A stretch of DNA of 59,878 nucleotides from Candidatus Nitrospira nitrificans (GTDB taxonomy: Bacteria; Nitrospirota; Nitrospiria; Nitrospirales; Nitrospiraceae): assembly GCF_001458775.1 (NCBI RefSeq), contig NZ_CZPZ01000015.1:1-59878 (forward strand), written 5' to 3'. Under the pieces are notes generated by a model that was given only the letters and a program-made list of their open reading frames with translations, did not search any database and had not been told where the DNA came from. Positions within the stretch are counted from its first letter, which is position 1, and every line of letters begins with the position of its first letter. A program made the position numbers and the translations under genes. This document shows positions 7,434 through 49,173 of the stretch, in pieces.

Positions 7434-7436
7434 TCT

Positions 7437-7937
7437 ATGACGCTTGAGAGCATCCACATCAGACCAGCGACCAAGGATGACGCGGAGACCATCATCGGAT
7501 TCAATAGAGCCATGGCACTCGAAACCGAGAATCGCCGGCTCCACCTACCAACACTGCGTCAGGGCATTCTCGCATTCTTAGAAAGTCCCGGGTATGGATC
7601 GTATGTCGTGGCGGAACTTCCAGAAGACACAAGATGCAAGCTGGTCGGTCAGCTTATGCTGACCTATGAATGGAGCGACTGGCGGAACGGGGTCTTTTGG
7701 TGGATCCAGAGTGTCTACGTCGAACCGGATCGGCGAGGCAGAGGGGTGTTTCGGGCCATGTACACGCATGTCCTGGCCAAGGCGAAAGCCGATCCAGGGG
7801 TCTGCGGGATTAGGTTGTATGTGGAACGGGAGAATCGCAGGGCTCAAACCGTGTACCAGCGTGTGGGACTCACTCCGTCCGTATACACGGTATTCGAGCA
7901 AGATTTCGTCCTGGGGCATGGGGCCGCCCAGAAATAG
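7437..7937 (+). CDS. GNAT family N-acetyltransferase
   Basis: A 166-aa single-domain GNAT acetyltransferase. Motif A, the acetyl-CoA pyrophosphate loop, is seen as VYVEPDRRGRGVFRAMY near residues 96-112. Motif B-like RLYVERENRRAQTVYQRVGL follows. The substrate cannot be read from the sequence. The start ATG lies three nt after the stop of the DUF502 gene, and the lipoprotein gene begins 13 nt after the stop, suggesting an operon of four genes up to 8764. Confidence 0.88.
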   Translation: MTLESIHIRPATKDDAETIIGFNRAMALETENRRLHLPTLRQGILAFLESPGYGSYVVAELPEDTRCKLVGQLMLTYEWSDWRNGVFWWIQSVYVEPDRRGRGVFRAMYTHVLAKAKADPGVCGIRLYVERENRRAQTVYQRVGLTPSVYTVFEQDFVLGHGAAQK

Positions 7938-21273: not shown

Positions 21274-22167
21274 TTATTTTTTCGTCGCGGTCGTTGTAGT
21301 TGGGAGATTCGTCTCCAGCACGAAGCGTTTATGCAAAGGTTGCGTCGGTCGCGCATTGTCGTGTTTCACGAGAGCGCGAAACTTTTTGATCTGTTCAGCG
21401 GAGACCTCGATGGGGTCTTGCATAACCGCCCAAATAACACCTTCGGAACAGGGCGGCGTGGTAAAGGAACCGGAGTAGCGATAGTAGGATTTCCGCTCAG
21501 GCAAGAGGTTCATCGGATTGACGGTGTGATTATGGTCGTCATTGACTTCTCCCACCTTGGTGGGCGCATGCTCCAAGAAGGTTTCGAAAAACTGATTGTG
21601 TTTGCCTTCTTCCATAAAGACGGCAACCACCGCCACCTCATGACGCTCGTTGTGATGCACCAGATGCAGTTCCATCGGGTAATGCTTCTGATCTATCGTG
21701 TGCTCACTCGGAACATGGAAATGGAACTGTTCAAGTAAGTAGAGGTCCTCGTCGAACACGATGGTGCTGTCCTTATCAAAATGGAGGACCGTCTGTCCGT
21801 GTTTGGGATAACGGGATTTGACCGTTTCTGAAAGCGGCTCGACTTCTTGTAATGTATGTCCATTATTCACCACATGAAAAGGAGCATCTCGATAAGAAAA
21901 CTGAATGTCGTCGAGCGTCGTCTTATGAGCGCGCAACAAATCGATCGGTGATTGGGCCATGCCTTTTTCACAGATGGAGAACTCGGGCCCAAGCTCGCTC
22001 CAATGAAGCGGTCCATGAGGACCATCATATCCCCATGTGCTATGCCCTGTTTCTCCCGCATGCACGCATGCGACCGGCAGCGTCAACGTCAGCATGATCA
22101 GCAGGCTTCTGATCGAAATCCTCATCATACTCGAGTGACTCGATACGGCAACCATTGATCCCTTCAT
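21274..22167 (-). CDS. Exported alpha-type carbonic anhydrase
   Basis: A 297-aa protein: an N-terminal hydrophobic signal (about residues 18-37) and a full alpha-carbonic anhydrase domain from about residue 43. It interconverts CO2 and bicarbonate. Zinc ligands are H149 and H151 in FHFH and H168 in ELHLVHH. The N-terminal motif QSPIDL and the substrate-pocket SFTTPPCSEGV are intact. The start at 22167 is chosen for the GGGGGAGGAA site upstream. An exported enzyme fits inorganic carbon supply at the cell surface, consistent with the DabA-type locus at 35-44 kb. Confidence 0.94.
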   Translation of the reverse strand: MKGSMVAVSSHSSMMRISIRSLLIMLTLTLPVACVHAGETGHSTWGYDGPHGPLHWSELGPEFSICEKGMAQSPIDLLRAHKTTLDDIQFSYRDAPFHVVNNGHTLQEVEPLSETVKSRYPKHGQTVLHFDKDSTIVFDEDLYLLEQFHFHVPSEHTIDQKHYPMELHLVHHNERHEVAVVAVFMEEGKHNQFFETFLEHAPTKVGEVNDDHNHTVNPMNLLPERKSYYRYSGSFTTPPCSEGVIWAVMQDPIEVSAEQIKKFRALVKHDNARPTQPLHKRFVLETNLPTTTTATKK

Positions 22168-22698
22168 GACATTCCTCCCCCTTCTATGCGGATTGACCAC
22201 TGAGTCATCTGTCGACAACCAATCTTGAAGTGAAACTGTTGCTACCCGGGGCGCAATTATAGGTTCGCGTCGATCCATTTCTCAATAGTTTACCTGTAGG
22301 ATTCGCCTGGGTAAATCGTATAAAGATCGGTATACGAACTAATTCAGGAATAGAAGATCAGGACTTTCGTGGCATGGCTGTTCGTCGACGTCGATTGAAC
22401 AAACGAAGCAGGTGATCTCCATAGCGAGAGGCTTATGAAGCCTCTCCATTTCTCAACTCAGTCCCTTCCCTGTGCCTTTGTGACATACCATGCCAGGCTG
22501 TCACGAATCCATTTCTGATTTCCCGCCATATCGGATAGGACCATAGGCGAAATCGTTGACGAATTCTTTCAGGCGATAGGCCGCAAGGAGCTTCTCAGAT
22601 GGCATCGGGCTTGCTGTTGCTCATAACAGGCGGTTCAGAAATCCAGGAAGTCGTTCCGACCGAGGCTCAGGTGGCGGCTGTCTCACGAAGGAGCCGAT
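22168..22698. other. Intergenic region with a short hairpin
   Basis: This 531-bp region holds the promoter side of the carbonic anhydrase gene. A perfect 9-bp stem with a 3-nt loop lies at 22426-22446 (GAGAGGCTT/AAGCCTCTC). An imperfect operator-like CGTATA/TATACG repeat lies at 22317-22336. No gene is convincing. Confidence 0.5.
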
Positions 22699-34535: not shown

Positions 34536-34571
34536 TTGGACAGGCGTTCAGAAGAGAGAGGATATAGGCAC

Positions 34572-34877
34572 ATGAAAACTCTCATCATTGTGGCTCGGGA
34601 CTCGATGATAAGCGACCTGGAGGAACTCCTGCAGAGTAATGGCGTCAAAGCCTACACCATCATGAGCAACGTCATGGGCAAGGGAGTAACGGGTAGAGTG
34701 TTCGGGACTTTCCTCAACCCCGACACCAATGCGATCATTTTTGCGGTCCTTCCACCCGACCAGGCGGACAAGGCGGTCAGTGCGCTTCAAACTCTTCATG
34801 CCACGCGAAAAGCGTCTTCATGTGACACGCCTATCCCTCTCAAGGTGTTTTCTTTTCCTTGTGAGGAACATGTGTAG
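34572..34877 (+). CDS. PII-like small protein of the RND operon
   Basis: A 101-aa protein with the ferredoxin-like PII fold: first strand KTLIIVARDSM, helix, second strand YTIMSNVMGKGVTGRVFG with a Gly-rich turn, and an IIFAVLPPDQADKAVSAL segment. Small PII-like proteins (DUF3240-type and relatives) are known beside RND metal pumps, where they are thought to sense ligands. The start is the ATG at 34572, behind AGAGAGG. It resembles the PII-like gene of the DabA operon, with which it is convergent. Confidence 0.75.
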   Translation: MKTLIIVARDSMISDLEELLQSNGVKAYTIMSNVMGKGVTGRVFGTFLNPDTNAIIFAVLPPDQADKAVSALQTLHATRKASSCDTPIPLKVFSFPCEEHV

Positions 34878-35084: not shown

Positions 35085-35426
35085 TCAGGATTTGGCGCCC
35101 TTCTTCCCGAAATATTCCTGGCGGCCCACGGCGACATCGGCGACATACATGAAACCGGAGTGCCGATCGAAGAGCGGACGAAGGCCGGCAAGAATGGGTT
35201 CGACCTTTTCTTCCGGCACGACCGTGAGGATCATTTCGAGGCTCTCCTGCTCGCTGAACATGAAGTGCGCCTCCCGCACCCCATGGTGTCCCTTGCCGGA
35301 TATATTGCCGATGATCGTGTATCCCGAGGCGTGGACACGGTCCAGCAGGTCGGTTACGAACGCGCGATGCTCGCCCGCGACAATCACACGAATTTCCTTC
35401 ATCGGATGCAAACTTAAACCGCCCAT
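35085..35426 (-). CDS. PII-like protein of the DabA operon
   Basis: A 113-aa PII-like signalling protein: KEIRVIVAGEHRAFVTDLL, ASGYTIIGNISGKGHHGVRE and MILTVVPEEKVEPILAGLRP form the ferredoxin-like pattern. PII-family proteins bind nucleotides or bicarbonate-related signals and commonly regulate inorganic carbon transporters (SbtB/CPII types). The ATG at 35426 is chosen for AAAGGAG upstream and begins 4 nt after the dabA stop, so it is the last gene of that operon. Regulation of the carbon system by this protein is inference. Confidence 0.8.
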   Translation of the reverse strand: MGGLSLHPMKEIRVIVAGEHRAFVTDLLDRVHASGYTIIGNISGKGHHGVREAHFMFSEQESLEMILTVVPEEKVEPILAGLRPLFDRHSGFMYVADVAVGRQEYFGKKGAKS

Positions 35427-35430
35427 CGAG

Positions 35431-38400
35431 TCACTCCTTTCCAGCCTCGGGTTGTACCGTCGAAACCGGTTGCTTCTGTTCCCTTGAGACATCCTCGGCG
35501 ATGCGCGCCCATTCTCCGTTCGGTCGATATCGATACCAGCCACCGTCTCGCGGATCCAGCACGATCAAATGCACCCACTCATTGTGATAATAATGCTGAA
35601 GCACTTCATGTCGCGCAATGAGTTTCTCGATTCCTGTACGAGGGGCTTCAACGATGGTCAATAACCGCATCGGCTCGTGGTACGGCATTTCCCCGTTCAT
35701 GACGGTTTGTCGAGCCAATCCCAGCCGGAGATCGCTCCAGGGGCCGGACATGATGCCAAGCCGCCCGACGACATTATGGTAGATCTTGCTCCCGCTGCCG
35801 TACACGTCGTTGTCCACGGCGGAGAAATAATGTTCCATATTGATCCACTGCGCCACCACCTGCGGCGCGGTGAGCAGCACTTCGAGTAGTCGATGGTTCG
35901 GATCTTCGCGATAGTCGTATGAATGCAGGAATACACGCCCGCCCAAGTCCAGTCCTTTCGTCAGCTCGCGGCGTCCGATCAGGAACGAGGTATTGTTCGA
36001 GAGACCCCACTCCGGCCGGACTTGGCTCCAGTCGACGCTCCGCTTGCGGACCTGTGCCTCGGCGCTGGTTCGTTTGAGTACCCGGCGGATATCGGGAAAG
36101 CGCAGACAACGCTCTTGGCTGGTGAGGACGGAGGCCTCTTTGAGGTCTTCTTGGAGTCGGGCGATGTCCGCGCGATGGGTCGGCGGGGCGTCTTCGAGGT
36201 CGAACAGCTGTATGGCATCGGTCGTCGTGTCCATCTGGCCGGCGACAAAATGCGTATCGGCGGGGATATTGATTCCCAGTTTGGGGATTCGCTCGCGGAC
36301 CTTGGGATTGTTCGCCATCATCGCGAGGGCGCGAGCATTGGGTTTACCCTCATTGCCGCCGCAGGCTCCGCAATCGAGCGCGGACTCGTAGGGATTGTTG
36401 TCCGACGTGCTGCCATGGGCGCAGAACAGGACCAGACGCGCAAAGTTCTTGGTCAGTCCCATCATGCGGAGGGCGGTATCGACGGTCAGGACTTGCTCTT
36501 CCAAGGTGAAACCGGTCCTGGTGAGCCGTTCTTTGTGTCGTGACGCGGATCGCGCCGTCAGGTCATATTGCCGTCGCAAGGTGTCGACGAACGCGGTGAT
36601 CGTCTCCTGTGTGAGTCCGGCCCGCTCGAGTTCCTCGTCCGCGATAGGCGGCGCTGGGTCTCCTTCCACCATCAGAGCCCGCTGACGGAGACTTTCGACG
36701 AGCGTCGGCGTGATGCGAAAGCTGCGGAGCCCGAGGTGTTCGTGCAAGGCTTCCTTGATCACGGCTTGTTGCTCGGCTGCCAGCATTTCCGCTGTTTCCC
36801 CAGGCGCCAGCTTGTCTATCGTCAACGTGGTGGCCAAAGAGGGGACGAACAGGCGCCGCAACCAGGTGGTCCATCGCTGGTAGAGCTTCGGAACCAACGT
36901 CTTGCCGAATATCGGCAGGCTGTAAAACCAGCCCAGCGATTCCACCATGACATAAGGAGTCACGACGTTCTCTTTCAGATCGTGCAAGAGCGTGTGACCC
37001 GCCTGCACCCACTTGGCCCTCGCCGTGTGCAGCGAGACCTTATCGTCGAGATAGCTGCGGGGAATTTCCCGGACCTCGTTCTTCGCCCGCATGATCACGG
37101 GGAATTGTTCCGTGTCGTGTTCCTTGCCCCAGGCCCGATAGCGGATGAAGGCGGCGAAGAAACCGGCAAAGCCGAACGTTTCGTGTGGGCCGATTGCTTC
37201 AAGGTGGCGGCGGAACGGTTCGGAGCGCACGTCGATGCAGTAGACCGACTGTGAGTACGGGCGAGCCGTCTCAGAGGGAGGGGTGTTCCTGGCGCGCGCG
37301 CGCAAGGATCCTAACAGCTCCTCCTGGTAGCCGGCTTCCAGGGCCTTGAGCCATACCGGCCCATGGTCCGATTCGGGGAACGTCTCCATCCAATCGACGA
37401 CTTGCTTGAGGTCCGTGGGAGCGCTTTCAACGAGCGCGGTTGCCTTGATGTTCACTGAATGGGCCAGGGCGAGAAGCCGGCGCGCGGCCCCGCGACGGGC
37501 GGCAGCTTGCAGCCGGGGAATGACCTCGGCGCGGTATCGTGCGAGGATATTGTTCCAGCTTTGTCCCTTCCGATGCGAGAGCCGGTCGACTTCCTCGGCA
37601 TAGAGGGCGGGCAACCGGCCGGCCACCCGCTGCCGTCGAAGATAGTATTCTTCCGGATAGTCGCGCATGAAGGCCATCACGGCTTCGTATCGCCCGTCGA
37701 TCCCGAGACGGTCCTTGCAAGCCTGTTGGACCAATTCACGCGCGTACCAGAGACGAATCGCGAGAAACTTCACCAGCCCGACGGGGTGAGTTTGCTGCCA
37801 TGGATAGTCACGTTCTTCCGCGCGCCATTTGATGAAGCCGGCCCATCCGGGCAGCGCCGTCAATTGTAACGATAAGTAATTTTGTAGAAGTTCCGCGGGA
37901 ATCCCCAGCGCATCCAGGCTTTCGAGGAGCGCATCCTCGGGGTAGTCCGGCAGCTGGGCGATCTTCCGGCGGCTGTCTTTGATTCCACAGGGAGACCATT
38001 CGTGGGAGGTCATGGCCCTCCACGCTTCATACAGGCCCTTGTCGCGTCCCGGCATCACCCACGTGGCATGTCCCTCGTCCAGGAAGGCCCCGCACCATTT
38101 GATCATTTGCTCGTTGATCTGCTGGACGATCTGTGTGCCGAGTGTGTCGTCGCACCAGTGCGAAAGCGTCAGCCACCGGCAAAGCGCGGCTTGATTTTCA
38201 TCCACGACTTTACGGATTCGATCGTCCAACGAAAAAGGGAGCAGCGCGCCTTCCAGCTTACGAGCAAGCGCGTCGATCAGCGGCCTGTCGGGATCTTCCA
38301 GTTGATCATCGAGCGGTTCCATGGTCGGCGCACACAGTCCGTCGGCCAGACAGGCGCGCAGGACCGACCCATGCGTGATGGTATGCGATCCGATCGCCAC

Positions 38401-38697
38401 CTGCTTATCGAGGACATGAGGCTTGAGCGCGTCATCGAGATGAGTTGACCGGATACGACCGGCCTTGAGGTACTCGCGATACAGAGAATTGGGAAGATAT
38501 CCGTTGCCGCCCATGAACTGCTTCCCGCGCTTGACGGCTTCCTCGAACGGCAAATATTCAATGCTGTGCAAGGGATTGTGGTGGACGAAGGTCCGCATCG
38601 GCCAGTACTGCGCAATGACTTCCCCGGCAAGGCGGACGACCCCGCGCAATTCCATTCGCCTGGATTCCATGTCCGCCACGCGCTCTAGCGATTCCAT
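35431..38697 (-). CDS. dabA: DabA/MpsB-type (DUF2309) inorganic carbon transport subunit
   Basis: A 1088-aa DUF2309 protein, the carbonic-anhydrase-like partner of DabAB/MpsAB systems, which take up or vectorially hydrate CO2 using membrane energy. Zinc-site residues fit the family: C487 and D489 (YCIDVRSEP), H761 (FCAHGST) and C776 (LDCGACGG). The 15-residue His-Cys spacing equals that of characterised DabA. It is at the long end of the family. The ATG at 38697 overlaps the upstream membrane gene by 13 nt and has GAGAGG upstream. Peripheral to the inner membrane. Confidence 0.93.
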   Translation of the reverse strand: MESLERVADMESRRMELRGVVRLAGEVIAQYWPMRTFVHHNPLHSIEYLPFEEAVKRGKQFMGGNGYLPNSLYREYLKAGRIRSTHLDDALKPHVLDKQVAIGSHTITHGSVLRACLADGLCAPTMEPLDDQLEDPDRPLIDALARKLEGALLPFSLDDRIRKVVDENQAALCRWLTLSHWCDDTLGTQIVQQINEQMIKWCGAFLDEGHATWVMPGRDKGLYEAWRAMTSHEWSPCGIKDSRRKIAQLPDYPEDALLESLDALGIPAELLQNYLSLQLTALPGWAGFIKWRAEERDYPWQQTHPVGLVKFLAIRLWYARELVQQACKDRLGIDGRYEAVMAFMRDYPEEYYLRRQRVAGRLPALYAEEVDRLSHRKGQSWNNILARYRAEVIPRLQAAARRGAARRLLALAHSVNIKATALVESAPTDLKQVVDWMETFPESDHGPVWLKALEAGYQEELLGSLRARARNTPPSETARPYSQSVYCIDVRSEPFRRHLEAIGPHETFGFAGFFAAFIRYRAWGKEHDTEQFPVIMRAKNEVREIPRSYLDDKVSLHTARAKWVQAGHTLLHDLKENVVTPYVMVESLGWFYSLPIFGKTLVPKLYQRWTTWLRRLFVPSLATTLTIDKLAPGETAEMLAAEQQAVIKEALHEHLGLRSFRITPTLVESLRQRALMVEGDPAPPIADEELERAGLTQETITAFVDTLRRQYDLTARSASRHKERLTRTGFTLEEQVLTVDTALRMMGLTKNFARLVLFCAHGSTSDNNPYESALDCGACGGNEGKPNARALAMMANNPKVRERIPKLGINIPADTHFVAGQMDTTTDAIQLFDLEDAPPTHRADIARLQEDLKEASVLTSQERCLRFPDIRRVLKRTSAEAQVRKRSVDWSQVRPEWGLSNNTSFLIGRRELTKGLDLGGRVFLHSYDYREDPNHRLLEVLLTAPQVVAQWINMEHYFSAVDNDVYGSGSKIYHNVVGRLGIMSGPWSDLRLGLARQTVMNGEMPYHEPMRLLTIVEAPRTGIEKLIARHEVLQHYYHNEWVHLIVLDPRDGGWYRYRPNGEWARIAEDVSREQKQPVSTVQPEAGKE

Positions 38698-39998
38698 GCG
38701 AGGGACCTCTCCATGGCGATGGTTCTACTTGAGGCCTGATCCGGCGCATATAAGCTGGTCGGGGCCAAGCCAAGCGCCAGCAAGGTCAGCACCGCGATCA
38801 ACAGCGATGCCAACTCGGGATACCGGAGGTCGGCATAGCGTAAATCCGGCCGGCGAGCGCCGAAGAGCAGTTGTTGCACCATCTGCATGATGTACCAGGA
38901 AGCGGCAAGCCAGGCGGTGAGCGCAATGAACAGGCCGATCGTTGAAGAGGGCGGCGCGGTCAGCAGCAACCCCATGAATCCCGCAAACACTCCGAAGGGT
39001 GGAAGACCCATCGCAGCCAGGGCGAGCAGCGACAGCAGGACCCCGTAGCTCGGCATGGACGAGGCCAATCCACTGATCGACTGCGGGTCCACATCGTCGC
39101 CGTATCTCGTGCGGATCACCTGCCAGGCAACCAACAGTCCACCGGTGGCAAGGCCGACCGCTCCGGCCAGCACGGCCGCGCGCGGCGTCGCCGTGTGGGC
39201 TCCGGCCACAAACCACCAGAGGATCGAAAAGAAGGAGACGCTGCCGTAGCCCAGCAAGAGACGGACGCGCGACTGGGCCAACGCCTTGATCGCGCCGTAC
39301 AGCGAGCTGACCAGGGCCAAGAAGCTGACGACCGTCACGAATTCATTCGGCATCGTCGGCATGGCTTTCGCCAGTCCGTGAAGGCCAAGCAGGGGCAGCA
39401 GCAACACAATGAACGGCGGCAAGCTGCCCGGCAGTCTGGTCAGCGCCGTGAGGTATCCGTCATGAAAGGGCATGAGCGGCAACAGCACGGCACAGGTCGC
39501 CAAGGAGGCCACCGATGAGATGGGCGGTTCAGCCGCGAGGGACACACCCGCGCCGACGACGCCGACACCGAAGGAGCCGATGCCCCACCAGGAGATGGGC
39601 CAGAGCGTGGTGTGGTGGCGGTATAGCAGGAACATGATCGTCAGCATGAGTGAGATCAGGCACAGGAGGCCGAAATTCTCGGCGGTGAGCGCGCCCATCC
39701 CCAAACCGAGAAACACCAACGTCATGATCCAGGAGAGCCGATGGTTCTCGTGAACGGGCTGGCCTAATACGGACACCATGGCCGCGATCGGGAGTAAATA
39801 GAGCGGTAAGAACCCATCGGGCGGGGTCGGAAGATAGTTGGCAATGGCGACGATCGACGCGAGGCTGATGACAGAGCAGACGATCGCATACATTTTCACC
39901 CGATAGGGATCCGACGACCGGGTCAGGCTCACGAGCGCTCCCAGGAAAGGAATCCCGGTGACGAGCCATGGGAGGAAAGCTTCCATCATCGCGACCAC
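38685..39998 (-). CDS. MrpA/NuoL-like membrane protein, third subunit of the Dab locus
   Basis: A 437-aa polytopic protein with about 11-13 helices and antiporter-type similarity, diverged from its two neighbours. It carries charged residues inside helices, such as HDGYLTALTRLPGSLPPF and LLGYGSVSFFSILWW. It resembles the proton-channel family (Proton_antipo_M) used by DabB/MpsA, but its conserved Lys/Glu pattern is weaker. It overlaps the NuoL-like gene before it by 13 nt and dabA after it by 13 nt, so all three are translationally coupled. Likely part of the same complex. Confidence 0.8.
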   Translation of the reverse strand: MVAMMEAFLPWLVTGIPFLGALVSLTRSSDPYRVKMYAIVCSVISLASIVAIANYLPTPPDGFLPLYLLPIAAMVSVLGQPVHENHRLSWIMTLVFLGLGMGALTAENFGLLCLISLMLTIMFLLYRHHTTLWPISWWGIGSFGVGVVGAGVSLAAEPPISSVASLATCAVLLPLMPFHDGYLTALTRLPGSLPPFIVLLLPLLGLHGLAKAMPTMPNEFVTVVSFLALVSSLYGAIKALAQSRVRLLLGYGSVSFFSILWWFVAGAHTATPRAAVLAGAVGLATGGLLVAWQVIRTRYGDDVDPQSISGLASSMPSYGVLLSLLALAAMGLPPFGVFAGFMGLLLTAPPSSTIGLFIALTAWLAASWYIMQMVQQLLFGARRPDLRYADLRYPELASLLIAVLTLLALGLAPTSLYAPDQASSRTIAMERSLAWNR

Positions 39999-41692
39999 CC
40001 GCGTTCCAGTTTGTCGATTCGATGAACCAGCTGCGTCGTCGTCGAGCCGAGCAGTTGATAGAGCTCATCGGCATACATCCGATTGAGGAACACCGTATAA
40101 AGCCGAATCCTCATCGCTTCGATCCAGACCGGCATCCAGACCGTCCGACCGTGGGCGCGCAGGTAGAGATAGGTCCAGCCGAAGATCGTCATGATCGCGG
40201 CCATCACGACAATGAGGTCGAAGAGCCAGTCCGGGAGATCGGCGGCCTTGAAATACGACGCCACCTCTTCCGGGTTGGGATAGAGGAACGCGGTGAACGA
40301 TTCGACGGCGAACAGATAGACGAACACGGTGAACAGAAGCGTCAGCAGCATGATGGCCGATACTTTCCAGGACGCCACGGCACGCAGCCGTGTGAGCGTC
40401 AAGATCGCTTGCGACGAGGTGATCCAGATGAAAAACAGGATAATGACGGTTCCCTGGGATTCCAAGAGTGGAATGCGCAGGACTCCGTGCGTGACCAAGA
40501 GAATAAGCAGCGGGATGAACAGCGTCGTCACAAACCCGGTCAGCCAGGCCAAGCGAGAGAATCCCGCCTCGTCATTCTCATGGTCCGTATGGGGGAAATG
40601 CGGCTCCTGGCGCGCCTTATGGATGACATTTCCACAATTGAGGAAGACCGTGGCCTTGAAAAGGCCATGGGCGATCAAATGAAAGACGGCCAGCGAAAAG
40701 GCTCCTAAGCCGCATTCCATGATCATGTAGCCCATCTGCCCGATCGTCGAGAAGCCGAGCGTCTTCTTGATGTCGTTTTGCGCCAGCATCATCGTTGCGC
40801 CGAGGGCGGCCGTCAGCGTCCCGATCACGAAGGCCACGTGCAAGGTGGTGGAACTCATGCCGAAGAGCGGCGCCAGGCGGTTGATGAGAAAGCCTCCGGC
40901 GTTGATGATACCCGCATGCAGCAAGGCGTGGACCGGCGTGGGAGCGAAGAGCGATCCGGGCAGCCACAGATGCAGAGGAAACTGCGCTGACTTCCCCATC
41001 GCGCCGATAAACAGGAGGAAGGTGACTGCCGTCACGGCGCTGACGTCCATCCCGGGCAGAATCGACAGCGTCACGGGGATGTCGGCCGCTCTGGCAAACA
41101 GTTCTTGGAATTCGAGGGTGCCGTACAGTTGATACGCGAGGACAATGCCGGCTAGAAACGCCGTATCGGCAACGCGCAACAGCGTAAACGTCTTGAATGC
41201 GCCCGCCAGCGTCGCGGCATGGACATGGTTGTGCGCAAGCAGGTAGAGCAGATAGCTGAGGATTTGCCAAAAGAGAAACAGCATCATGAGGTTGCCGCTC
41301 GAGACCATGCAGATCAACACGAAGTCGGTCAGGCAAATCAACGTCAGATACCGGCGCGTATGACGGTCCTGATACATATATCTCGTGGAGTAGTAATAGA
41401 TGATGGTGGAGACACCCGTGATCAATGTCATCATGACCGCGCTCAAGCGGTCGACATAGAAGCCGATGGGAATAATGAAGGATACGACGGAGGAAGGGTC
41501 GTAGAATCGAACGGTGACGGGACCTTGCGAGGTGACCAGGACCAGGATGCCGATGGCGCCGAGGAATGCCGATCCAATGGGATAGGCGGCCGCCTTCGCG
41601 CGGGTGGAACGCGGCGCCTCGCCGCCGGTCATGACGATGCCGGCGGCGATGAGCAGCAGCAGCGGGACGCATAGTACGAGCGACAGAAGCAC
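39986..41692 (-). CDS. NuoL-like DabB/MpsA-type membrane subunit, copy 2
   Basis: A 568-aa proton-channel-type protein of the NuoL/MrpA family. Family segments: GVSTIIYYYSTRYMY, MGKSAQFPLHLWLPGS, PTPVHALLHAGIINAGGFLI and GFSTIGQMGYMIMECGLGAF. It pairs with DabA to energise CO2 hydration by proton or sodium flux. It is highly similar over its length to the gene at 41914-43617, with long identical stretches such as VASWKVSA and ESFTAFLYPNPEEV. The GTG start lies one base after a 52-codon ORF. Confidence 0.9.
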   Translation of the reverse strand: MLLSLVLCVPLLLLIAAGIVMTGGEAPRSTRAKAAAYPIGSAFLGAIGILVLVTSQGPVTVRFYDPSSVVSFIIPIGFYVDRLSAVMMTLITGVSTIIYYYSTRYMYQDRHTRRYLTLICLTDFVLICMVSSGNLMMLFLFWQILSYLLYLLAHNHVHAATLAGAFKTFTLLRVADTAFLAGIVLAYQLYGTLEFQELFARAADIPVTLSILPGMDVSAVTAVTFLLFIGAMGKSAQFPLHLWLPGSLFAPTPVHALLHAGIINAGGFLINRLAPLFGMSSTTLHVAFVIGTLTAALGATMMLAQNDIKKTLGFSTIGQMGYMIMECGLGAFSLAVFHLIAHGLFKATVFLNCGNVIHKARQEPHFPHTDHENDEAGFSRLAWLTGFVTTLFIPLLILLVTHGVLRIPLLESQGTVIILFFIWITSSQAILTLTRLRAVASWKVSAIMLLTLLFTVFVYLFAVESFTAFLYPNPEEVASYFKAADLPDWLFDLIVVMAAIMTIFGWTYLYLRAHGRTVWMPVWIEAMRIRLYTVFLNRMYADELYQLLGSTTTQLVHRIDKLERGWSR

Positions 41693-41693
41693 G

Positions 41694-41852
41694 TTATTCC
41701 CACGGAAGGTTGAAAAGCGCTCGTTCGTTCTCGGTCAGGCAGTCGGGCACACCCTGCCGTAACGGCGGCAGGCTAACCATTAATACGGGGTCTCCATACT
41801 CGTCAAGCAGGGACTGATCGTCGGTTTCCGCTCTTGTGCTTTTGCGGACCAA
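41694..41852 (-). CDS. Hidden 52-residue ORF between the NuoL-like genes
   Basis: The 221-bp space between the two NuoL-like genes holds a minus-strand frame of 53 codons from a TTG at 41852 to a TAA at 41694-41696. The TAA is followed by one base and then the GTG of the next gene, a typical coupling distance. The residues look protein-like, e.g. SLLDEYGDPVLMVSLPPLRQ and LTENERALFNLPWE, with a soluble acidic character. The start codon is uncertain: TTG with a weak ribosome-binding site. I recognise no family. Confidence 0.45.
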   Translation of the reverse strand: MVRKSTRAETDDQSLLDEYGDPVLMVSLPPLRQGVPDCLTENERALFNLPWE

Positions 41853-41913
41853 GCGCCTATGTCGTCTCCGCAGAATCCGGCAGTCTCATCTCCACGTCGT
41901 CGGGCCCGGTCAG

Positions 41914-43617
41914 TCAAAGCGCGCGTTCCTGGGCGCGCTTATCCAAGCGCTGAATGACGGACGTCAGTCTGTGCCCCACTCGATGTAAGACCACGTCGAC
42001 ATACAGTCGATTGAGGAACAGCACATAGAGGCGGATCCGGACGCTGGTGATCCACGATGGCGTCCACAGGGTCCGGCCATGGGCCCGCATGTACACATAG
42101 ATCCAGCCTACGATCGTCACCAGCGTCGACACCACGAGAAGAAGGTCAAAGAGCCAGTCCGGAAGATCACCGGCCTTGAAGTACGAGGTCACTTCCTCCG
42201 GGTTAGGGTACAGGAATGCCGTGAACGATTCGACGGCAAACAAATACACGAATACGATGAACAAAAGCGTCAGCAACATCGCCGCGGACACCTTCCAGGA
42301 CGCGACGGCCCGCAACCGGGTCAGCGTCAAGATCGCTTGCGACGAGGTGATCCAGATGAAAAAGAGAAAGATGACGGTACCCTGGGACTCCAGCAGGGGA
42401 ATCCGTAACACGCCGTGAGTCGCCAGCAAGATGAGCAAGGGGATCAGCAAGGTCGTGAGAACCCCCGTCATCCACGTCAGGGGTGAATAGCTTTCTTCCT
42501 CCGCCTCTTGTCCTCGATAGGGGAAGACGGGTTCCTGTCTCGCCTTGTGGATGACATTTCCGCTGTACAAGAACACCGTGGCCTTGAACAGACCGTGCGC
42601 GATCAAGTGAAAGACCGCGAGCGAAAACGCCCCGAGACCGCATTCCATCACCATGTAGCCCATTTGACCGATCGTCGAAAAGCCGAGCATGTTCTTGATG
42701 TCGTTTTGCACCAGCATCATGGTCGCGCCGAGGATGGCCGTCAGCGTGCCGATCACGAGAGCGACGTGCAAAGTGGTCGAGCTCATCCCGAAGAGCGGGG
42801 CCAGGCGGTTGATGAGAAAGCCCGCGGCATTGATAATGCCCGCGTGCAGTAAGGCGGTCACGGATGTGGGGGCATAGAGATACCGGGGAAGCCAGCCGTA
42901 AAACGGAAATTGGGCTGATTTACTCATTCCGCCGACAAGGAGCAGGAGAGTGACCGCTGTCGCGCCGTTGAATTCGACACCGGGGATCAGGGAGACGGTC
43001 GCCGTCGATTGCGCGGCGGCGGCAAACAGATCAGGAAATTCCAATGTGCCGTACAGCGAGTAAGCCAGCACGGTCCCACCCAAGAAGGCGACATCACCGA
43101 CCCGCAAGAGCGTGAAGGTGCGAAACGCGCTTTTCAGTGTTTCTTGGTGGCTATGATTGTGGACGAGGAGGTAGAGGAGGTAACTCAGCAACTGCCACAG
43201 CACGAACAGCATCAGCAAGTTCGCGCTGGACACCAGGCACAGGAGGACAAACACGGTCAACCCGATCAAGGCAAGATACCGGCGCTCGTGCAAGTCTTGG
43301 TACATATATTCGACGGAGTACGTGTAGATGATCGTGCCGATGCCGGAGATCAAGACCATCATGACCGCGCTCAGCCGATCAATATACAGGCCGATCGGAA
43401 CGGCCAATACGGTGGAAGCCACCGGATCGTAGAGTCGAAGCGTAATCGGGCCTTCCGTGGCCACGGCGTACAGCGTGGCGATGGCGCCACAGAAGGCCAC
43501 ACCGATCGGCCAGGCGGCAATTTTTGCGCGAGTGTGGCGCGTGACGTCGCTACCGACGCCCACGATAAGGGCGGCGATCAATGGAAGCAGGTGTACCAGC
43601 AACACCGCGGACATCAT
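41914..43617 (-). CDS. NuoL-like DabB/MpsA-type membrane subunit, copy 1
   Basis: A 567-aa NuoL/MrpA-type protein and the first gene of the minus-strand carbon operon. Motifs: SGIGTIIYTYSVEYMYQDLH, MSKSAQFPFYGWLPRYLYAP, LLHAGIINAAGFLINRLAP and GFSTIGQMGYMVMECG. The HisLys antiporter positions in these helices match copy 2, indicating a tandem duplication. I start at the ATG at 43617 (the next codon is also ATG) because GAGG precedes it and upstream residues are not membrane-like. It would form the ion path for DabA. Confidence 0.9.
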   Translation of the reverse strand: MMSAVLLVHLLPLIAALIVGVGSDVTRHTRAKIAAWPIGVAFCGAIATLYAVATEGPITLRLYDPVASTVLAVPIGLYIDRLSAVMMVLISGIGTIIYTYSVEYMYQDLHERRYLALIGLTVFVLLCLVSSANLLMLFVLWQLLSYLLYLLVHNHSHQETLKSAFRTFTLLRVGDVAFLGGTVLAYSLYGTLEFPDLFAAAAQSTATVSLIPGVEFNGATAVTLLLLVGGMSKSAQFPFYGWLPRYLYAPTSVTALLHAGIINAAGFLINRLAPLFGMSSTTLHVALVIGTLTAILGATMMLVQNDIKNMLGFSTIGQMGYMVMECGLGAFSLAVFHLIAHGLFKATVFLYSGNVIHKARQEPVFPYRGQEAEEESYSPLTWMTGVLTTLLIPLLILLATHGVLRIPLLESQGTVIFLFFIWITSSQAILTLTRLRAVASWKVSAAMLLTLLFIVFVYLFAVESFTAFLYPNPEEVTSYFKAGDLPDWLFDLLLVVSTLVTIVGWIYVYMRAHGRTLWTPSWITSVRIRLYVLFLNRLYVDVVLHRVGHRLTSVIQRLDKRAQERAL

Positions 43618-43989
43618 TACCTCGAAAAACACAAAAGCCAACCGGTATGCTCGACACCTGTCGATGCAGCTCAGTTGGCTTGTACTGCGACCGGCCTCTC
43701 GCATGAACTGCCGGTCACCCTACGATCCATGACATGGAACACTCGGGGTCCCACCGATCCGTAACCATGTTACAGTACCAGGACCGGCAGCATCGCCGTG
43801 TGTTCAAAACAGTTCTTGCATAATATGGATGAACGAGCAGCGTCAAGGACGAATAGGAAGACAGGTCTCTCAACCGGAGATTCTTGGCCCGAAAGGCCCA
43901 TGATTATGGATTGATTAAGACAAAAGGCCCAGCGCGACACGTATCCTTACTTGTCATGCGATCCTAGAGGATGATAGTGAAGGTGAGTC
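43618..43989. other. Divergent control region of the Dab/Mps locus
   Basis: 372 bp between the NuoL-like operon (minus) and the MpsC-type gene (plus). It must contain both promoters. A weak plus-strand TTGTCA/TAGTGA pair with an 18-nt spacer ends just before 43990. I found no clear minus-strand promoter or regulator site. No gene is supported. Confidence 0.5.
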
Positions 43990-44334
43990 ATGGAAAATTC
44001 AATTCGCAATGCCATTATCAAGTTCGAACAAGAGTTCTTGGGGCGAGGCCCTGATGAAGTCCGTGCGCTCGTGGCTCGGGATCTCGTTGTCGTTCGGCTC
44101 AAAGGCGTGCTGACACCCGCTGAACGCCAGCTCGCGAAAACCTCGGAAGGTGTCGAGATGGTGAAACGCCTGCGGCAAAACTTGATCGCGCAGGGTCGTG
44201 ACAAGCTCTGTGAGCAAGTCGGCGAGATCACCGGAGCCAAGATTCTCGGTCTCTTCACCGATATCGATGTGCAGCTCGGAGAACGGGTCTTCGTGTTTAC
44301 GTTGGATCGGGAACTGCAAAACGGTGGCCGATAG
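43990..44334 (+). CDS. DUF2294 (MpsC-type) protein
   Basis: A 114-aa DUF2294 protein, very typical of the family: N-terminal IIKFEQEFLGRGPDEVRA, central VVVRLKGVLTPAERQLAKT and C-terminal ITGAKILGLFTDIDVQLGER. In staphylococci mpsC of this family sits in one operon with mpsA (NuoL-like) and mpsB (DabA-like), a membrane-potential and bicarbonate-uptake system. Here it is divergent from the equivalent operon, supporting a functional link. Its biochemical role is unknown. The ATG at 43990 follows GAAGGTG. Confidence 0.88.
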   Translation: MENSIRNAIIKFEQEFLGRGPDEVRALVARDLVVVRLKGVLTPAERQLAKTSEGVEMVKRLRQNLIAQGRDKLCEQVGEITGAKILGLFTDIDVQLGERVFVFTLDRELQNGGR

Positions 44335-44347
44335 GATATCGTCTTCC

Positions 44348-45823
44348 ATGACTCGGCGCACACTGGAAACGCTCGCTTTCGACAACACCTACGCCCGTCT
44401 TCCCTCAGCCTTCTACGCGCGATTGAGTCCGACTCCATTTACCGCCCCTCCCTATCTGGTTCATGCCGACCCGGCCGCGGCCGAGCTGATCGATCTCGAT
44501 CCGGAACAATTTATCCGGCCGGAATTCACGGCGCTCTTCGGCGGGAGCGCGTTGGCGCCGGGCATGGAGCCGCTGGCCATGCTGTACTCCGGCCATCAGT
44601 TCGGGGTCTATGTGCCGCAGCTTGGCGACGGACGAGCGATTCTCCTCGGGGAAGTCAAGAACGAACGAGGAGAGCGGTGGGACCTGCACCTCAAAGGTGC
44701 GGGGATGACGCCGTTTTCGCGGGACGGAGACGGCCGGGCGGTGCTGCGCTCGACGATCCGCGAGTATCTTTGTTGCGCGGCGATGCAGGGACTCGGTATC
44801 CCGACCACGCGGGCCTTGTGCCTGGTGGGCAGCGACGACAAGGTCTACCGCGAGCAGATCGAAACCGGCGCGACGGTGGTCCGGATGGCGCCTTCACATG
44901 TCCGCTTCGGCATGTTTGAAGTCTTCTATTACCGAAAGCAGCATGAACATCTACAGACGCTGGCCGATTACGTGATCGAGCACCATTTCCCGCGTCTTCG
45001 TGATGATGACGACAAATACGCCCGGTGCTTCACCGAGGTCGTCGAGCGCACCGCACGGTTGATCGCTCAATGGCAGGCGGTCGGTTGGGCGCATGGGGTC
45101 ATGAACACCGACAATATGTCGATCCTCGGTCTGACGCTGGACTATGGGCCGTACGGCTTCATGGACGATTACGACGCCGGCTTTATCTGTAATCACTCCG
45201 ACCACAATGGCCGCTATGCCTTCAACCAGCAGCCCTACATCGGGCTCTGGAATCTGAGCTGCTTGGCGCAAGCCTTGTTGCCGTTGGCGGAAAAAGAGGC
45301 GTTGAAAGCCGGTCTGGATACCTATCAACCCCTGTTTGAGTCCGAATATCAGATGCGCATGCGGGCGAAATTCGGATTGGTCGAGGCGCAGGCGGAAGAC
45401 GACGAACTCATCCGCGACTTCCTGGGGCTCCTCCAGGGCAGCCATGCGGATTACACGATCGTATTCCGGGAATTGGCCACCGTGTCATCGGCGGAGAATG
45501 CCCCGAACGACAGGCTGCGAGAACACTTCCTCACCCCAAACCGGTTCGATGAGTGGGCGGCGCGTTACCGAGATCGACTGCGGAACGAGCATAGCCGTGA
45601 CGGCGACCGGCGGGACCGGATGAATCGCGTGAATCCCAAGTATGTGCTCCGGAATTATCTTGCTCAAACGGCGATTGAGAAGGCGCAACACAAGGACTTC
45701 TCCGAGATCGCCCGCCTCTTCACTCTTCTGCAAGATCCTTTCAACGACCAGCCGGGTATGGAGGCCTATGCGCTGCCTCCTCCGAACTGGGGCAAGCACC
45801 TGTCCGTAAGCTGCTCATCTTAG
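44348..45823 (+). CDS. selO: SelO family protein adenylyltransferase (YdiU)
   Basis: A 491-aa SelO pseudokinase that transfers AMP to Ser/Thr/Tyr side chains, linked to redox homeostasis. Motifs: MLYSGHQFGVYVPQLGDGRA, HLKGAGMTPFSRDGDGRAVL (nucleotide site) and WAHGVMNTDNMSILG in the catalytic loop. The C terminus is SCSS, the conserved redox Cys motif that is Sec in some eukaryotic SelO. The ATG at 44348 is the natural start, 13 nt after the DUF2294 stop; an upstream extension overlaps that gene and is rejected. Probably cotranscribed with the MpsC-type gene. Confidence 0.94.
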   Translation: MTRRTLETLAFDNTYARLPSAFYARLSPTPFTAPPYLVHADPAAAELIDLDPEQFIRPEFTALFGGSALAPGMEPLAMLYSGHQFGVYVPQLGDGRAILLGEVKNERGERWDLHLKGAGMTPFSRDGDGRAVLRSTIREYLCCAAMQGLGIPTTRALCLVGSDDKVYREQIETGATVVRMAPSHVRFGMFEVFYYRKQHEHLQTLADYVIEHHFPRLRDDDDKYARCFTEVVERTARLIAQWQAVGWAHGVMNTDNMSILGLTLDYGPYGFMDDYDAGFICNHSDHNGRYAFNQQPYIGLWNLSCLAQALLPLAEKEALKAGLDTYQPLFESEYQMRMRAKFGLVEAQAEDDELIRDFLGLLQGSHADYTIVFRELATVSSAENAPNDRLREHFLTPNRFDEWAARYRDRLRNEHSRDGDRRDRMNRVNPKYVLRNYLAQTAIEKAQHKDFSEIARLFTLLQDPFNDQPGMEAYALPPPNWGKHLSVSCSS

Positions 45824-45951: not shown

Positions 45952-48900
45952 ATGGCGAAAAAACAAAGCGATTCCAAGATAGCGGTGGCCGGCGCCCTCA
46001 CGCTCGTGCTGGGGTTGGCCGGCGTCCTGCTGGTGAAAGAGCCGCTGCGCAGCTCTCGACCAGTCGGGACGGGACTGGACATGAGAGCAACCGTCGAGGA
46101 GCAAACAGTGCGTGCCCGTTTATGGGAAGACCCCGTCGCGGCGGTTCAGCGGGGCCTCCGGGAAGTCAAAACGAACCGACCTGCCGCCACTCCTCTTCCA
46201 CCGCTCACCCAGCGGCTTCGATCACTCCGCCAAGCGATCGCGGACCGGGTCAAGGATGGTCATCACGTGACAGTCTTGGTGGTGACGACCAGTGGAGGAC
46301 CCTATGTCGAAAGTGCCGAGTCGCGGGTTCGTGATCGCTATGCCGTCGGAACGGCCCTCGGAGTGGCCTGTTATGTGCCGGAACAGGAGGGCCAACTGTC
46401 GTTTGTCGAGTGGGACCAAGGTTCTCTTTCAGCCTTGCCGTACGAATGGTACCGACTCCGGAAGACGAGGGTGTGCGGCGAGGAAGGGGCGCGTGCTCAG
46501 GACGTGCTGGTGGTCTGGTTTTCGGACGAAACGCTGAGCCGGGGATTTTTCGCGAGTCTGACATCGTTCTCGCAAGCGCTCGTCTGCCGAGAAACCGCGA
46601 AGAAAAGCGAGTGCCTCCTCACGGAGGATTCACGCAGGCTCGTTCGGTTGAATCCGAACCTGCAACAGGCCGTCACCTTCAAGATCCTGGGACCTCGTAC
46701 CTCTTCGGCCTTTCGGGCGCTGCTGGCCGAGGCGGGTGAGTCGTATGCCGAGCCCCACGAAGGAATCGGGGTCTGGCCGAATGCCGACGGCTGGATCGAG
46801 CTGTACTCCCCATGGAGCAGCGCGATGAAAGGGCTTCTGGCCTACGGCCTCAAAACAGGTGGTGGGAAAGGCGCGGCCTGTGCCACGTATGCCTCCTGCG
46901 AGCAGGAATTCGCTCGACGGCTGTCGGATGCGAATATCCGGTTGACCTATGATATCGGGTCCGACGATCAATTGTTCGACGCGTTAGTCGAGGAGTTGGA
47001 GCGTCGGCAGGTGCGGCTTGGGTGGGACGCCGTAATCTTGATCGGGGAATGGGATTCGTTCTATGGGCGAGCCCTTCCCATTGAATTTCGGGCCGCCGCC
47101 TGCGCGAAAGTCGCGATGTTGCCTGAGAGGGACCTGGAACGTATCAAGGTGCCGGTGGAGATCAAGAGTTGGTGTTCCACGATTCCGCAGGCCGTCGACC
47201 TCCAGATTCAACGACAGGCCGACTATGAATCACTGACCCTCAACGTCCATCGGTATAGCTATCTGAGCGGTCTTGATGGGGAAGTCCCGGGGGAGGACAG
47301 AGGGAAGGCCGCTCGGGCCGATAATGGCAAGGAGAGCCAGAGGGATCGTCCGGAAGGGACGAGCCAGATCGATTATGTACGGGCCTTGGTGGATCGAATC
47401 CATGACGAGGGGGAGGGGGCTCGAGCCATCGGCATCTTCGGAACGGACCCCTATGATTCCTTGCTGATCATCAAAGCGCTTCGTCCCGCGTTTCCTCACG
47501 CCATTTTCTTTACGGTCGGCCTTGATGCCCGGCATCTGCACCCGAGCGAGTATAAGTGGACACGCAACATGGTCATCGCCTCTCCCTTCGGGTTGCAGTT
47601 GGATGGCGGTCTGCAGCGAGATGTCCCGCCCTTCCGCAGCAGCTATCAGACCTCCACCTATTTCGCCACGCTGCAGGCGGTCGGCCATGTCATGTGCCGC
47701 CGTGACGAGCCAGTGGGAGCTTCGGGCGGTCCCTGCATGGCCACCTACCATGCGGCATTGACACCCGACGACCGTCTCTACGATGCGGGATCTCATAGCA
47801 GACTATTCGAGGTAGGCCGGAGTGGAGCGGTGGACGTGAGCATCGTGAAGCAAGAAGGGGTGCGCACCATTCACCCTTTGCGCGCCGATCTGGCCCATAC
47901 GGATGGATACGGCCAGCTGAAACAAGGCGTCGGATTTGACAATGCCGCCGTGGCCGCCGCGACCGCGGTGGGATTTGTCCTCGTGGTGGTGGTGGCCTGG
48001 AGCAACCAACGCCTCTGGTCGGGCATCGTGCGGTCTCCGCGCGCGCTGAGCACCGCGGCAGTGACTCTTGTGGCGTTGTTCGCGGTCTTTGTGTCGGCCG
48101 GAGGGGCCGATGCCTTGCTGGCTGGGCATGACGAAGGGGAGCCGTTCTCGTGGACGGCCGGCGTCAGCATCTGGCCGAGCGAGCTGTTGCGGCTCTTCGT
48201 GGTGGTCCTGTCCGTCTTATTATTTGTGAAAGGTGCCCGCGATCTTCAGAAAAACGGTGAACAGATCGGCGAGAAGTTTCAGTTCATCGCGACATCGGGA
48301 CGGTACCGCTTCTCTCCTCGGACCGTCTGGACGAATCTTCAGCGGGTCTACCATCCCATCGCCACCATCGCCTCGATGAAGGTGGACCAGGCCTGGGCCC
48401 GGTATCGAGAAGCCGGTCGGCTGAGCCAGGGGATCGCTCGCACGTTTCTGTTGTTCCTCATCTACGCGGGAGCGATGTGGGCCATCGGCTATTTTGTGCT
48501 GGACGAGGAATATATCCATCCCTGCCGTGGGTTCCTGAGTTGCAATGTGGACTCGGTCATGACGCTCGCCAGCGTCGGCATCGTGGTGCTGCTGAATCTG
48601 GCGGTATTTGACGCGGTGATGCTCTGCCGCCGGTGGATCGGATGGGTCATCAACTCGACCGGAGGGTGGTCCGACCACATCCAGGACGAATATCTGCGCA
48701 ACTACGGAGTGGGAGACGCGCAGAAAACAGAGTTCGAGAAATTTCAGTATCTCGCCGTGGTCGACCTCATCGCGCAGCGGACGGAGGTGGTCAATCGGCT
48801 GATCCGGTATCCGTTCATCGCGCTCTTGATCATGATCGCGGCGCGCAACGAGTATTTCGACATCTGGAATTATCCGCTGCTGCTTTTGCTCTCTTGGTCG

Positions 48901-49173
48901 GTGAATGTGTTGGTGGCGCTTCTCGGCGCCTTCCTCCTCTATCAATCGGCAAGCCGGGCCAAAGCGGCGATGCTGGCCGGGCTCAACCGGCAAATCGTCA
49001 GGACCTTGGGCATCGGGAAGGATCACGACGTGCGAGTGAAACAGATTCAGCATGTCATCGGCGAGGTAGAAGACAACGAACAGGGCGCCTTTGTCCCGCT
49101 CTATCAACAGCCGGTCGTCGAATCGTCCCTGTACGGTTTGGTGGCGTTGCTTCAATATCTGTATCTCCGTTAG
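45952..49173 (+). CDS. Large unrecognised membrane protein
   Basis: A 1073-aa protein I do not recognise. An N-terminal transmembrane helix lies at about residues 10-28. A long extracytoplasmic or soluble part (about 40-660) follows, with a segment resembling a type-1 periplasmic-binding fold (GIFGTDPYDSLLIIKAL, then FTVGLDARHL). Six or seven helices fill about residues 665-1040 (VLVVVVAW, LLRLFVVVLSVLLF, LLFLIYAGAMWAIGYF and others). The conserved-looking VRARLWEDPVAAVQ lies near residue 54. The last residues are cytoplasmic. It ends 8 nt before the next gene. Possibly a receptor; the function is unknown. Confidence 0.75.
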   Translation: MAKKQSDSKIAVAGALTLVLGLAGVLLVKEPLRSSRPVGTGLDMRATVEEQTVRARLWEDPVAAVQRGLREVKTNRPAATPLPPLTQRLRSLRQAIADRVKDGHHVTVLVVTTSGGPYVESAESRVRDRYAVGTALGVACYVPEQEGQLSFVEWDQGSLSALPYEWYRLRKTRVCGEEGARAQDVLVVWFSDETLSRGFFASLTSFSQALVCRETAKKSECLLTEDSRRLVRLNPNLQQAVTFKILGPRTSSAFRALLAEAGESYAEPHEGIGVWPNADGWIELYSPWSSAMKGLLAYGLKTGGGKGAACATYASCEQEFARRLSDANIRLTYDIGSDDQLFDALVEELERRQVRLGWDAVILIGEWDSFYGRALPIEFRAAACAKVAMLPERDLERIKVPVEIKSWCSTIPQAVDLQIQRQADYESLTLNVHRYSYLSGLDGEVPGEDRGKAARADNGKESQRDRPEGTSQIDYVRALVDRIHDEGEGARAIGIFGTDPYDSLLIIKALRPAFPHAIFFTVGLDARHLHPSEYKWTRNMVIASPFGLQLDGGLQRDVPPFRSSYQTSTYFATLQAVGHVMCRRDEPVGASGGPCMATYHAALTPDDRLYDAGSHSRLFEVGRSGAVDVSIVKQEGVRTIHPLRADLAHTDGYGQLKQGVGFDNAAVAAATAVGFVLVVVVAWSNQRLWSGIVRSPRALSTAAVTLVALFAVFVSAGGADALLAGHDEGEPFSWTAGVSIWPSELLRLFVVVLSVLLFVKGARDLQKNGEQIGEKFQFIATSGRYRFSPRTVWTNLQRVYHPIATIASMKVDQAWARYREAGRLSQGIARTFLLFLIYAGAMWAIGYFVLDEEYIHPCRGFLSCNVDSVMTLASVGIVVLLNLAVFDAVMLCRRWIGWVINSTGGWSDHIQDEYLRNYGVGDAQKTEFEKFQYLAVVDLIAQRTEVVNRLIRYPFIALLIMIAARNEYFDIWNYPLLLLLSWSVNVLVALLGAFLLYQSASRAKAAMLAGLNRQIVRTLGIGKDHDVRVKQIQHVIGEVEDNEQGAFVPLYQQPVVESSLYGLVALLQYLYLR

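Follow-up and report, generated by a model that had tools for sequence, protein, structure and literature searches.

A probable DAB1-type inorganic-carbon gene cluster with a duplicated DabB in Candidatus Nitrospira nitrificans

The window analysed here, the whole of a 59,878-nucleotide stretch of Candidatus Nitrospira nitrificans DNA (contig NZ_CZPZ01000015.1, positions 1 to 59,878), contains a cluster of six genes that probably encodes a DAB1-type inorganic-carbon complex, a vectorial CO2 hydrase driven by the proton motive force and under PII-type control, in which DabB is duplicated. Ion-gradient-driven CO2 hydration of the DAB1 type is the most likely activity predicted for it. The basis is homology, gene order, catalytic and channel residues, the predicted fold and residue losses of a third membrane protein that we call M3, and fusion of DabB to M3 in some relatives. 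The reading is supported because the DabA active site and finger Glu are kept, nine channel residues are present in 26/26 DabB paralogue copies, M3 is homologous to a DAB1 gene, is fused to DabB elsewhere and has consistently lost three charged residues, and PII follows DabA in 52/53 loci. The DabB duplication, the M3 residue losses, the DabB-M3 fusions and the linkage to MpsC are new.

Five of the genes are on the minus strand in the order DabB-a, DabB-b, M3, DabA and PII-like, with MpsC divergent (Table 1). All six open reading frames (ORFs) lie where the initial annotation had placed them and each matches its expected Pfam family, which together with the conserved order rules out chance ORFs. 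The coupling by overlapping genes that had been proposed holds for DabB-b, M3 and DabA, with overlaps of 13 bp at each of the two junctions, but does not extend to DabB-a, which is 221 bp away from DabB-b and whose true start is probably 43617 rather than 43704.

Table 1. Coordinates in the window of the cluster genes and of the gene that follows MpsC.
Feature	Coordinates	Strand	Evidence
DabB-a, first NuoL-like (DabB1-type) subunit	41914..43704	-	PF00361 (Proton_antipo_M) 152 bits + PF00662
DabB-a/DabB-b intergenic gap, 221 bp	41693..41913	-	ORF coordinates
DabB-b, second NuoL-like subunit	39986..41692	-	PF00361 161 bits
M3, 437-amino-acid antiporter-like subunit; counterpart of DAB1 interstitial gene	38685..39998	-	PF00361 37 bits
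DabA, 1088 amino acids, beta-carbonic-anhydrase-like catalytic subunit, DAB1 length class	35431..38697	-	PF10070 885 bits
PII-like protein	35085..35417	-	PF00543 72 bits, 8e-20
MpsC (DUF2294), divergent from operon	43990..44334	+	PF10057 115 bits
SelO, directly after MpsC	44198..45823	+	PF02696 490 bits

PF10070 is present in 83 of 198 Nitrospirota genomes. Gene neighbourhoods were compared in 80 + 13 fetched stretches, a sample of the PF10070 matches, using our own thresholds; these gave 100 DabA rows of more than 690 amino acids (aa), or 99 after removal of a repeat (L207 duplicates L206), and M3 was counted as confirmed where it scored over 200 bits and lay just upstream of DabA. The initial annotation made its proposal depend on conservation of the gene order, and DabB-M3-DabA is confirmed in 55 of the 99 sampled Nitrospirota rows. 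Among these 55, 39 have one DabB, 13 have two, and three have none counted, probably owing to a contig end or broken frame; the remaining rows comprise 23 with DabB and DabA without an M3 match, 17 without an upstream DabB and four with weak M3 matches. Several loci (L052, L056, L060, L062, L064, L071 and similar) form a DabB-DabA-PII class in which M3 was not found, and in L052 genes for a PAS/GAF histidine kinase and a sigma-54 response regulator come next.

The catalytic subunit aligns with DabA2 of H. neapolitanus (9rd0_A, 7e-112), and the zinc-ligand pattern recognised earlier is indeed intact, with C487, D489, H761 and C776 aligned to DabA2 C351, D353, H524 and C539. Also kept are R491 (DabA2 R355), the finger residue E586 (E444) and L899 (L658), such that the window protein has the PF10070 domain, Cys2His zinc site and Asp-Arg dyad of a DAB1 member; the roles of the zinc ligands, dyad and finger are those reported for DabA2 (PMC13144422). 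In 59 DabA rows from M3-confirmed loci, which include the second DabA of some loci, the Cys, Asp and Arg of the site are kept in 59/59, the His and second Cys in 58/59 (one gap), and the finger position is Glu in 57 and Asp in 2. DabA had been described as long, and at 1088 aa it exceeds the 870 residues of DabA2 in the solved entry, but this is ordinary for the DAB1 type, in which 16 of 17 gammaproteobacterial loci with M3 have a DabA of 1038-1066 aa.

Those 17 loci, from Halothiobacillus, Guyparkeria and other genera, consist of DabB (about 560 aa, cut by a contig end in L205), a 247-268-aa protein, DabA and PII; the genomes compared are other Halothiobacillus and Guyparkeria genomes, none identified as H. 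neapolitanus. By profile comparison, the small protein of these gammaproteobacterial loci is a homologue of M3: hhalign aligns it with M3 over 240 columns at E 3.8e-16, but with the NuoM-like group over only 124 columns at 1.2e-4. M3 is thereby the PF00361 gene that a DAB1 locus carries between dabB and dabA. The initial annotation had contrasted the cluster with known systems of one DUF2309 protein and one NuoL-like protein; that contrast fails because in DAB1 a further PF00361 gene separates dabB1 from dabA1, and M3 is this third subunit. DAB1 has been called a three-subunit system (PMC13144422), and H. neapolitanus dabAB1 together with the interstitial PF00361 gene is reported to complement carbonic-anhydrase-free E. 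coli (PMC7714395). The DAB1 locus of Halothiobacillus (dabB1, hneap_0908, dabA1, PII) and the Nitrospira cluster thus share the DabB-M3-DabA-PII order, DabA length, M3 core and PII. They differ in that the Nitrospira M3 has 437 aa and a full-length fold, against 247-268 aa, and in that this Nitrospira genome has two DabBs and a divergent MpsC.

AlphaFold2, run on 39 sequences, gives M3 a predicted local distance difference test score (pLDDT) of 92.4 and a predicted template modelling score (pTM) of 0.92, and Foldseek matches the model to antiporter-like chains of complex I, NDH-1 and Mrp, with TM-scores of 0.81-0.83 to the best NuoM chains (E about 1e-11); we assume in part which chains are NuoM, NdhD or MrpD. 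M3 therefore has the antiporter fold on which the initial annotation had also made its proposal hinge. Three NuoM positions were checked in the alignment, the Lys of transmembrane helix 7 (TM7), the Lys of TM8 and the Glu/Lys of TM12, helix names that we take from complex I. In 48/48 Nitrospirota M3s these are replaced, by Leu, Ala or Phe at TM7, by Leu, Val, Ala, Ser, Ile, Thr or Met at TM8, and by Phe, Leu or Ile at TM12. They are likewise absent from 17/17 gammaproteobacterial counterparts, from 5/5 aligned DabB-M3 fusions and from two weaker proteins of family f18. Two NuoM-type proteins of the same genome have all three residues, and two NuoN-type proteins carry Lys at the TM7 and TM12 positions and Ala in the TM8 column. 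M3 lacks the residues of a working Mrp or complex I antiporter subunit, and the expectation of three working antiporter-like subunits is accordingly not sustained; the losses suggest that M3 is probably a non-conducting scaffold.

That M3 is nevertheless a third working ion channel is very improbable. The antiporter fold does run over its whole length, and the absence of the TM8 Lys from the two NuoN-type proteins is a point in its favour, but all three sites are lost in every M3, counterpart and aligned fusion, while 19/19 antiporters from clade C DabA clusters (described below) keep a Lys or Arg at TM7 and Lys at TM8, with Glu at TM12 in 11/19. Moreover, in the gammaproteobacterial proteins the match is confined to the C-terminal region of M3 (about positions 156-404 of the profile), and in the fusions too it is limited to the C-terminal region. 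An M3 created by sequencing error is ruled out by the 48 aligned proteins, the window's included, and the pLDDT of 92.

DabB is fused to the M3 core in seven rows (L099, L103, L104, L106, L213, L214 and L105, the last cut by a contig end), supporting contact between DabB and M3. A model of the fusion (pLDDT 81, pTM 0.87) has NuoL and MrpA chains as fold matches, with DabB2 not among the best 50. Fusions of M3 to DabA had also been suspected from DabA ORFs of 1496-1536 aa (L042, L053, L054, L068, L078 and L081), but M3 is a separate overlapping ORF in these loci and no DabA ORF has an M3 match. With the order conserved and DabB-M3 fused in 7/55 rows, the proposal of one multi-subunit complex is likely to be right, although the architecture is not a new one, corresponding to DAB1 plus a duplicated DabB.

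PII was correctly recognised as the last gene of the operon, and its position after dabA is that seen in DAB1; it follows DabA in 52 of the 53 M3-confirmed rows with more than 700 bp downstream. In the remaining row, L104, DabA is split (4378-7802 in G181, two overlapping frames of 868 + 289 aa, from a frameshift or an assembly error) and PII comes behind the second part. PII is within 700 bp after DabA in 16/17 gammaproteobacterial M3 loci and one gene further in the 17th. The nearest solved structures are 5d4n/5d4l (2.8e-31 over residues 1-96), with the 5d4n match beginning at the Met at 35402. We take these to be CPII, a bicarbonate-responsive, carboxysome-associated PII; binding of bicarbonate and adenylates by the Nitrospira protein is putative. 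A second PII-like gene (34536-34877, plus strand) follows RND efflux genes, to which it probably belongs; it scores 43.7 bits against the transporter-associated PG0541 family (cut-off 45).

On sequence grounds, DabB is duplicated in part of the Nitrospiraceae. Two copies are present in 13 of the 55 M3-confirmed rows, the window included (nine in its genus g1, one in g4 and three in g7), always adjacent and in the same order, with a gap of 57-320 bp by ORF starts. DabB-b aligns with DabB2 (9rd0_B, 3e-37 over residues 5-531), and nine of eleven checked DabB2 positions are identical in both copies: R182, D185, K235, H260, K310, S316, H339, H343 and K347 are kept in 13/13 a and 13/13 b copies. The window thus has the upstream DabB (PF00361/PF00662) with mutation-tested DabB2 residues (9/11 in each copy) that is expected of DAB1. 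Of the two other positions, I151 is replaced by Gln, and S256 by Thr in 13/13 a copies and His in 13/13 b copies; alanine at S256 is reported to impair DAB2 (PMC13144422). The S256 position in the 39 one-DabB M3 loci is His in 24, Ser in 11 and Thr in three, with one gap. Strictly, DAB1 has a single DabB; since the window and 12 other loci have two, we file the cluster as a variant of the DAB1 type.

The a and b copies are 67-82% identical, and there are only three positions at which every a copy differs from every b copy. In 13/13 pairs, a and b share 85-98% of residues over DabB-b 420-480 while fourfold-degenerate sites match at 0.12-0.74, and the channel core (240-360) is 82-95% identical; because the fourfold sites have diverged, both stretches appear to be held alike mostly by selection. 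Recent gene conversion as the sole cause of the alike C-terminal part is ruled out on the same grounds for most pairs, although part of the DabB core in L079-L081, where fourfold identity reaches 0.84-0.90 in part of the gene, looks converted. Between the window and L048, a is 93% and b 90% identical in amino acids, with fourfold identities of 0.71 and 0.67, and by these measures the two copies are under similar constraint. A quick tree, which carried long-branch warnings, places all a copies in one group (Shimodaira-Hasegawa-like approximate likelihood ratio support 88) and the b copies in two; a single duplication is favoured but not settled.

How the two DabBs are used bears directly on the composition of the complex. 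DabB-b 420-480 aligns with DabB2 410 to about 460, which we place within the TM11-14 region, the part reported to contact the DabA finger. Its similarity between copies suggests that each DabB can hold the finger, and slightly favours alternative partners over one large complex. DabB-a and DabB-b would then be interchangeable, competing for one DabA (and M3) to give two pumps differing in ion affinity or regulation, a serious possibility that falls somewhat short of even chances. The single finger Glu of DabA, the lack of translational coupling of DabB-a and the three separating positions agree with it; on the other hand, the channel core is about equally alike, such that the finger part is not singled out, the genes are adjacent and in the same order at all 13 two-copy loci, and in L079-L081 some of the identity may be due to conversion. 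A single larger complex is less likely; in it two adjacent conducting DabBs, together with M3, would resemble the antiporter chain of complex I and move two ions per CO2. The channel residues kept in both copies, the multi-antiporter DabA clusters elsewhere (clade C and DabA-Mrp loci) and an earlier proposal that more membrane subunits could mean more ions (PMC5700660) speak for it, but M3 lacks Lys/Glu at the three sites and, judging from DAB2, the outer half channel of a second conducting DabB would lack the DabA finger that completes it. Less probable again is an arrangement in which two different, fully conducting DabBs, held by a pure-scaffold M3, serve one DabA, with a changed or switchable ion-to-CO2 ratio and MpsC as an overlooked regulator; if true, such a two-DabB pump would parallel, in carbon uptake, the extra-pump variants of complex I.

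The divergent DUF2294/MpsC gene described initially is present, and is the only PF10057 match in the 4.1-Mb genome. MpsC is within 2.5 kb upstream in 36 of the 50 M3 loci with enough flank, 33 divergent (one with a second, co-directional copy) and three co-directional only. It is found near 2/21 rows with DabB but no M3, 5/15 without upstream DabB and 1/49 of the named DabA2-type; MpsC has been reported not to adjoin dab genes outside the staphylococci. As a subunit of the complex MpsC is not favoured, since deletion of mpsC in S. aureus was reported to have no effect on growth (PMC6689103). Two tandem MpsC genes lie directly upstream of DabB-DabA in L109 (G019, family f18) and L131 (a metagenome-assembled genome named Nitrospirae), where an approximately 1215-aa gene follows DabA and, in L131, DabA is in two pieces. 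A citrate-transporter-family gene (CitMHS) lies between MpsC and DabB-a in L045 (4123-5541, G145).

The proximity of MpsC to so many of these loci raises the alternative that the cluster performs Na+-coupled bicarbonate uptake, as in MpsAB, rather than proton-driven CO2 hydration. The S. aureus mpsABC genes are reported to complement an E. coli strain deficient in Na+/H+ antiporters (PMC6689103), but DAB2 works without sodium and does not rescue such a mutant (PMC13144422), and the carbonic-anhydrase-type site is kept in DabA, making this alternative improbable. MpsAB(C) resembles the Nitrospira cluster in its pair of NuoL-like and DabA-family proteins with an mpsC gene nearby; it differs in that mpsC is downstream and dispensable in S. 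aureus, and M3 and PII are not mentioned in the accessible part of that study (PMC6689103).

Other relatives are more distant in composition. DAB2 (DabA2/DabB2, PDB 9rd0) shares the zinc site, Asp-Arg dyad, finger Glu, Leu658 and nine of eleven DabB residues, but it is a two-gene dabB-dabA system with no extra subunit, whereas M3, a second DabB and PII are present here; M3 and PII were not found in 49/49 named DabA2-type rows (DabB counted in 40, over 700 bp downstream in 48). The solved DAB structures that we found are of the two-subunit form. Clusters of the order NuoM-like, DabA, NuoL, NuoM, NuoM, which are perhaps clade C of PMC5700660, also combine DabA with several antiporter-like genes; they differ in order, their antiporters keep most of the Lys/Glu residues, PII was not found, and the DabA L658 position is His in 8/8. 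Cyanobacterial NDH-1MS couples energy to CO2 hydration with several antiporter-like subunits (PMC13144422), but is driven by ferredoxin and has Cup proteins instead of DabA, and no electron-transfer genes were seen in the Nitrospira cluster. In L244-L248 (G165, which belongs to the window's genus, G177, G155, G123 and G189) DabA belongs to another class and is the first gene of an Mrp-type operon, in the order DabA, MnhE, MrpF, MnhG, MbhD/E, MnhB, chain-4L-like (in the MnhC position), MrpD-like, NuoL-like and NuoM-like; six of the small genes are Pfam-named in L245 and three in L244, the others being assigned by size and order. The antiporters there keep the TM7 Lys, the finger Glu of DabA is Asp and MpsC is just upstream of DabA in 4/5; these loci possibly encode a DabA-Mrp complex.

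NuoL-YbcC(DabA)-PII operons were described in 2017, in PMC5700660. Mrp, BicA and extra NuoL/M genes of Nitrospira are treated in PMC7784846, in the accessible part of which DabA is not mentioned. Literature titles and abstract openings yielded no Nitrospira dab cluster or doubled DabB, which says little, as most subscription journals were outside the search.

We infer the mechanism and direction of the predicted DAB1-type complex from DAB2. DabA would be a buried zinc enzyme, like a beta-carbonic anhydrase, on the cytoplasmic face, with its finger helices (E586) pushed into the DabB channel, such that inward proton flow through DabB would power the hydration of CO2 to bicarbonate in one direction. 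M3 would be an antiporter-fold protein without an ion path of its own, docked beside DabB as a scaffold, and the PII-like protein may adjust the activity or the assembly of the complex in response to carbon or adenylate state. DabB-b, M3 and DabA would form the core, with DabB-a an added or alternative channel.

Several points weigh against this assignment. All functions of the Nitrospira members are read from relatives. S. aureus MpsAB has been proposed to be a Na+/bicarbonate symporter (PMC13144422). At the position of DabA2 H585 the window protein has Met; across the 59 rows, 39 have Met, Val or Ile there, 19 have His and one has a gap, so the proton exit may differ. DabB-b scores 204 bits in phmmer to mitochondrial Nad5 against 132 bits to DabB2, of which only the DabB2 match reaches near the C terminus, and the similarity of M3 to the NuoM group (5e-19) is no lower than that to its gammaproteobacterial counterpart. 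Finally, the NuoN-type proteins without a TM8 Lys show that this column alone is no mark of a dead subunit.

The genome (G000; 4.1 Mb, 36 contigs), searched also with PF10057, PF00484, PF16114 and narG, has one DabA match, ten Proton_antipo_M matches of which three are in the cluster, two beta-carbonic-anhydrase matches and one match to an ATP-citrate-lyase-type citrate-binding domain. The last would point to a reverse tricarboxylic acid cycle rather than the Calvin cycle, a further difference from DAB1 of Halothiobacillus. The alpha-type carbonic anhydrase gene noted initially is present in the window (21274-22278, minus strand; PF00194, 7e-47). A cut gene at the window start and the gene after it resemble the alpha and beta subunits of type II dimethyl sulfoxide reductases, as we would expect of Nitrospira nitrite oxidoreductase; the pair fits a nitrite oxidiser but does not prove one. 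SelO, within the fetched stretch of 26/55 M3 loci, probably does not belong to the system. Behind it lies the gene of a 1073-aa protein (45952-49173, plus strand) with no Pfam match at E 0.001; in several relatives, too, SelO is followed by an ORF of ~1050-1115 aa. Rfam gave no match in the window at gathering scores.

DAB complexes are a route by which non-photosynthetic autotrophs gather carbon. For Nitrospira, nitrite oxidisers with little energy to spend, the cost of each bicarbonate matters. The comparisons suggest that the unnamed third subunit of DAB1 is a conserved protein of antiporter type that has lost its ion path, and the duplicated DabB makes the question of how many ions are spent per CO2 a testable one.

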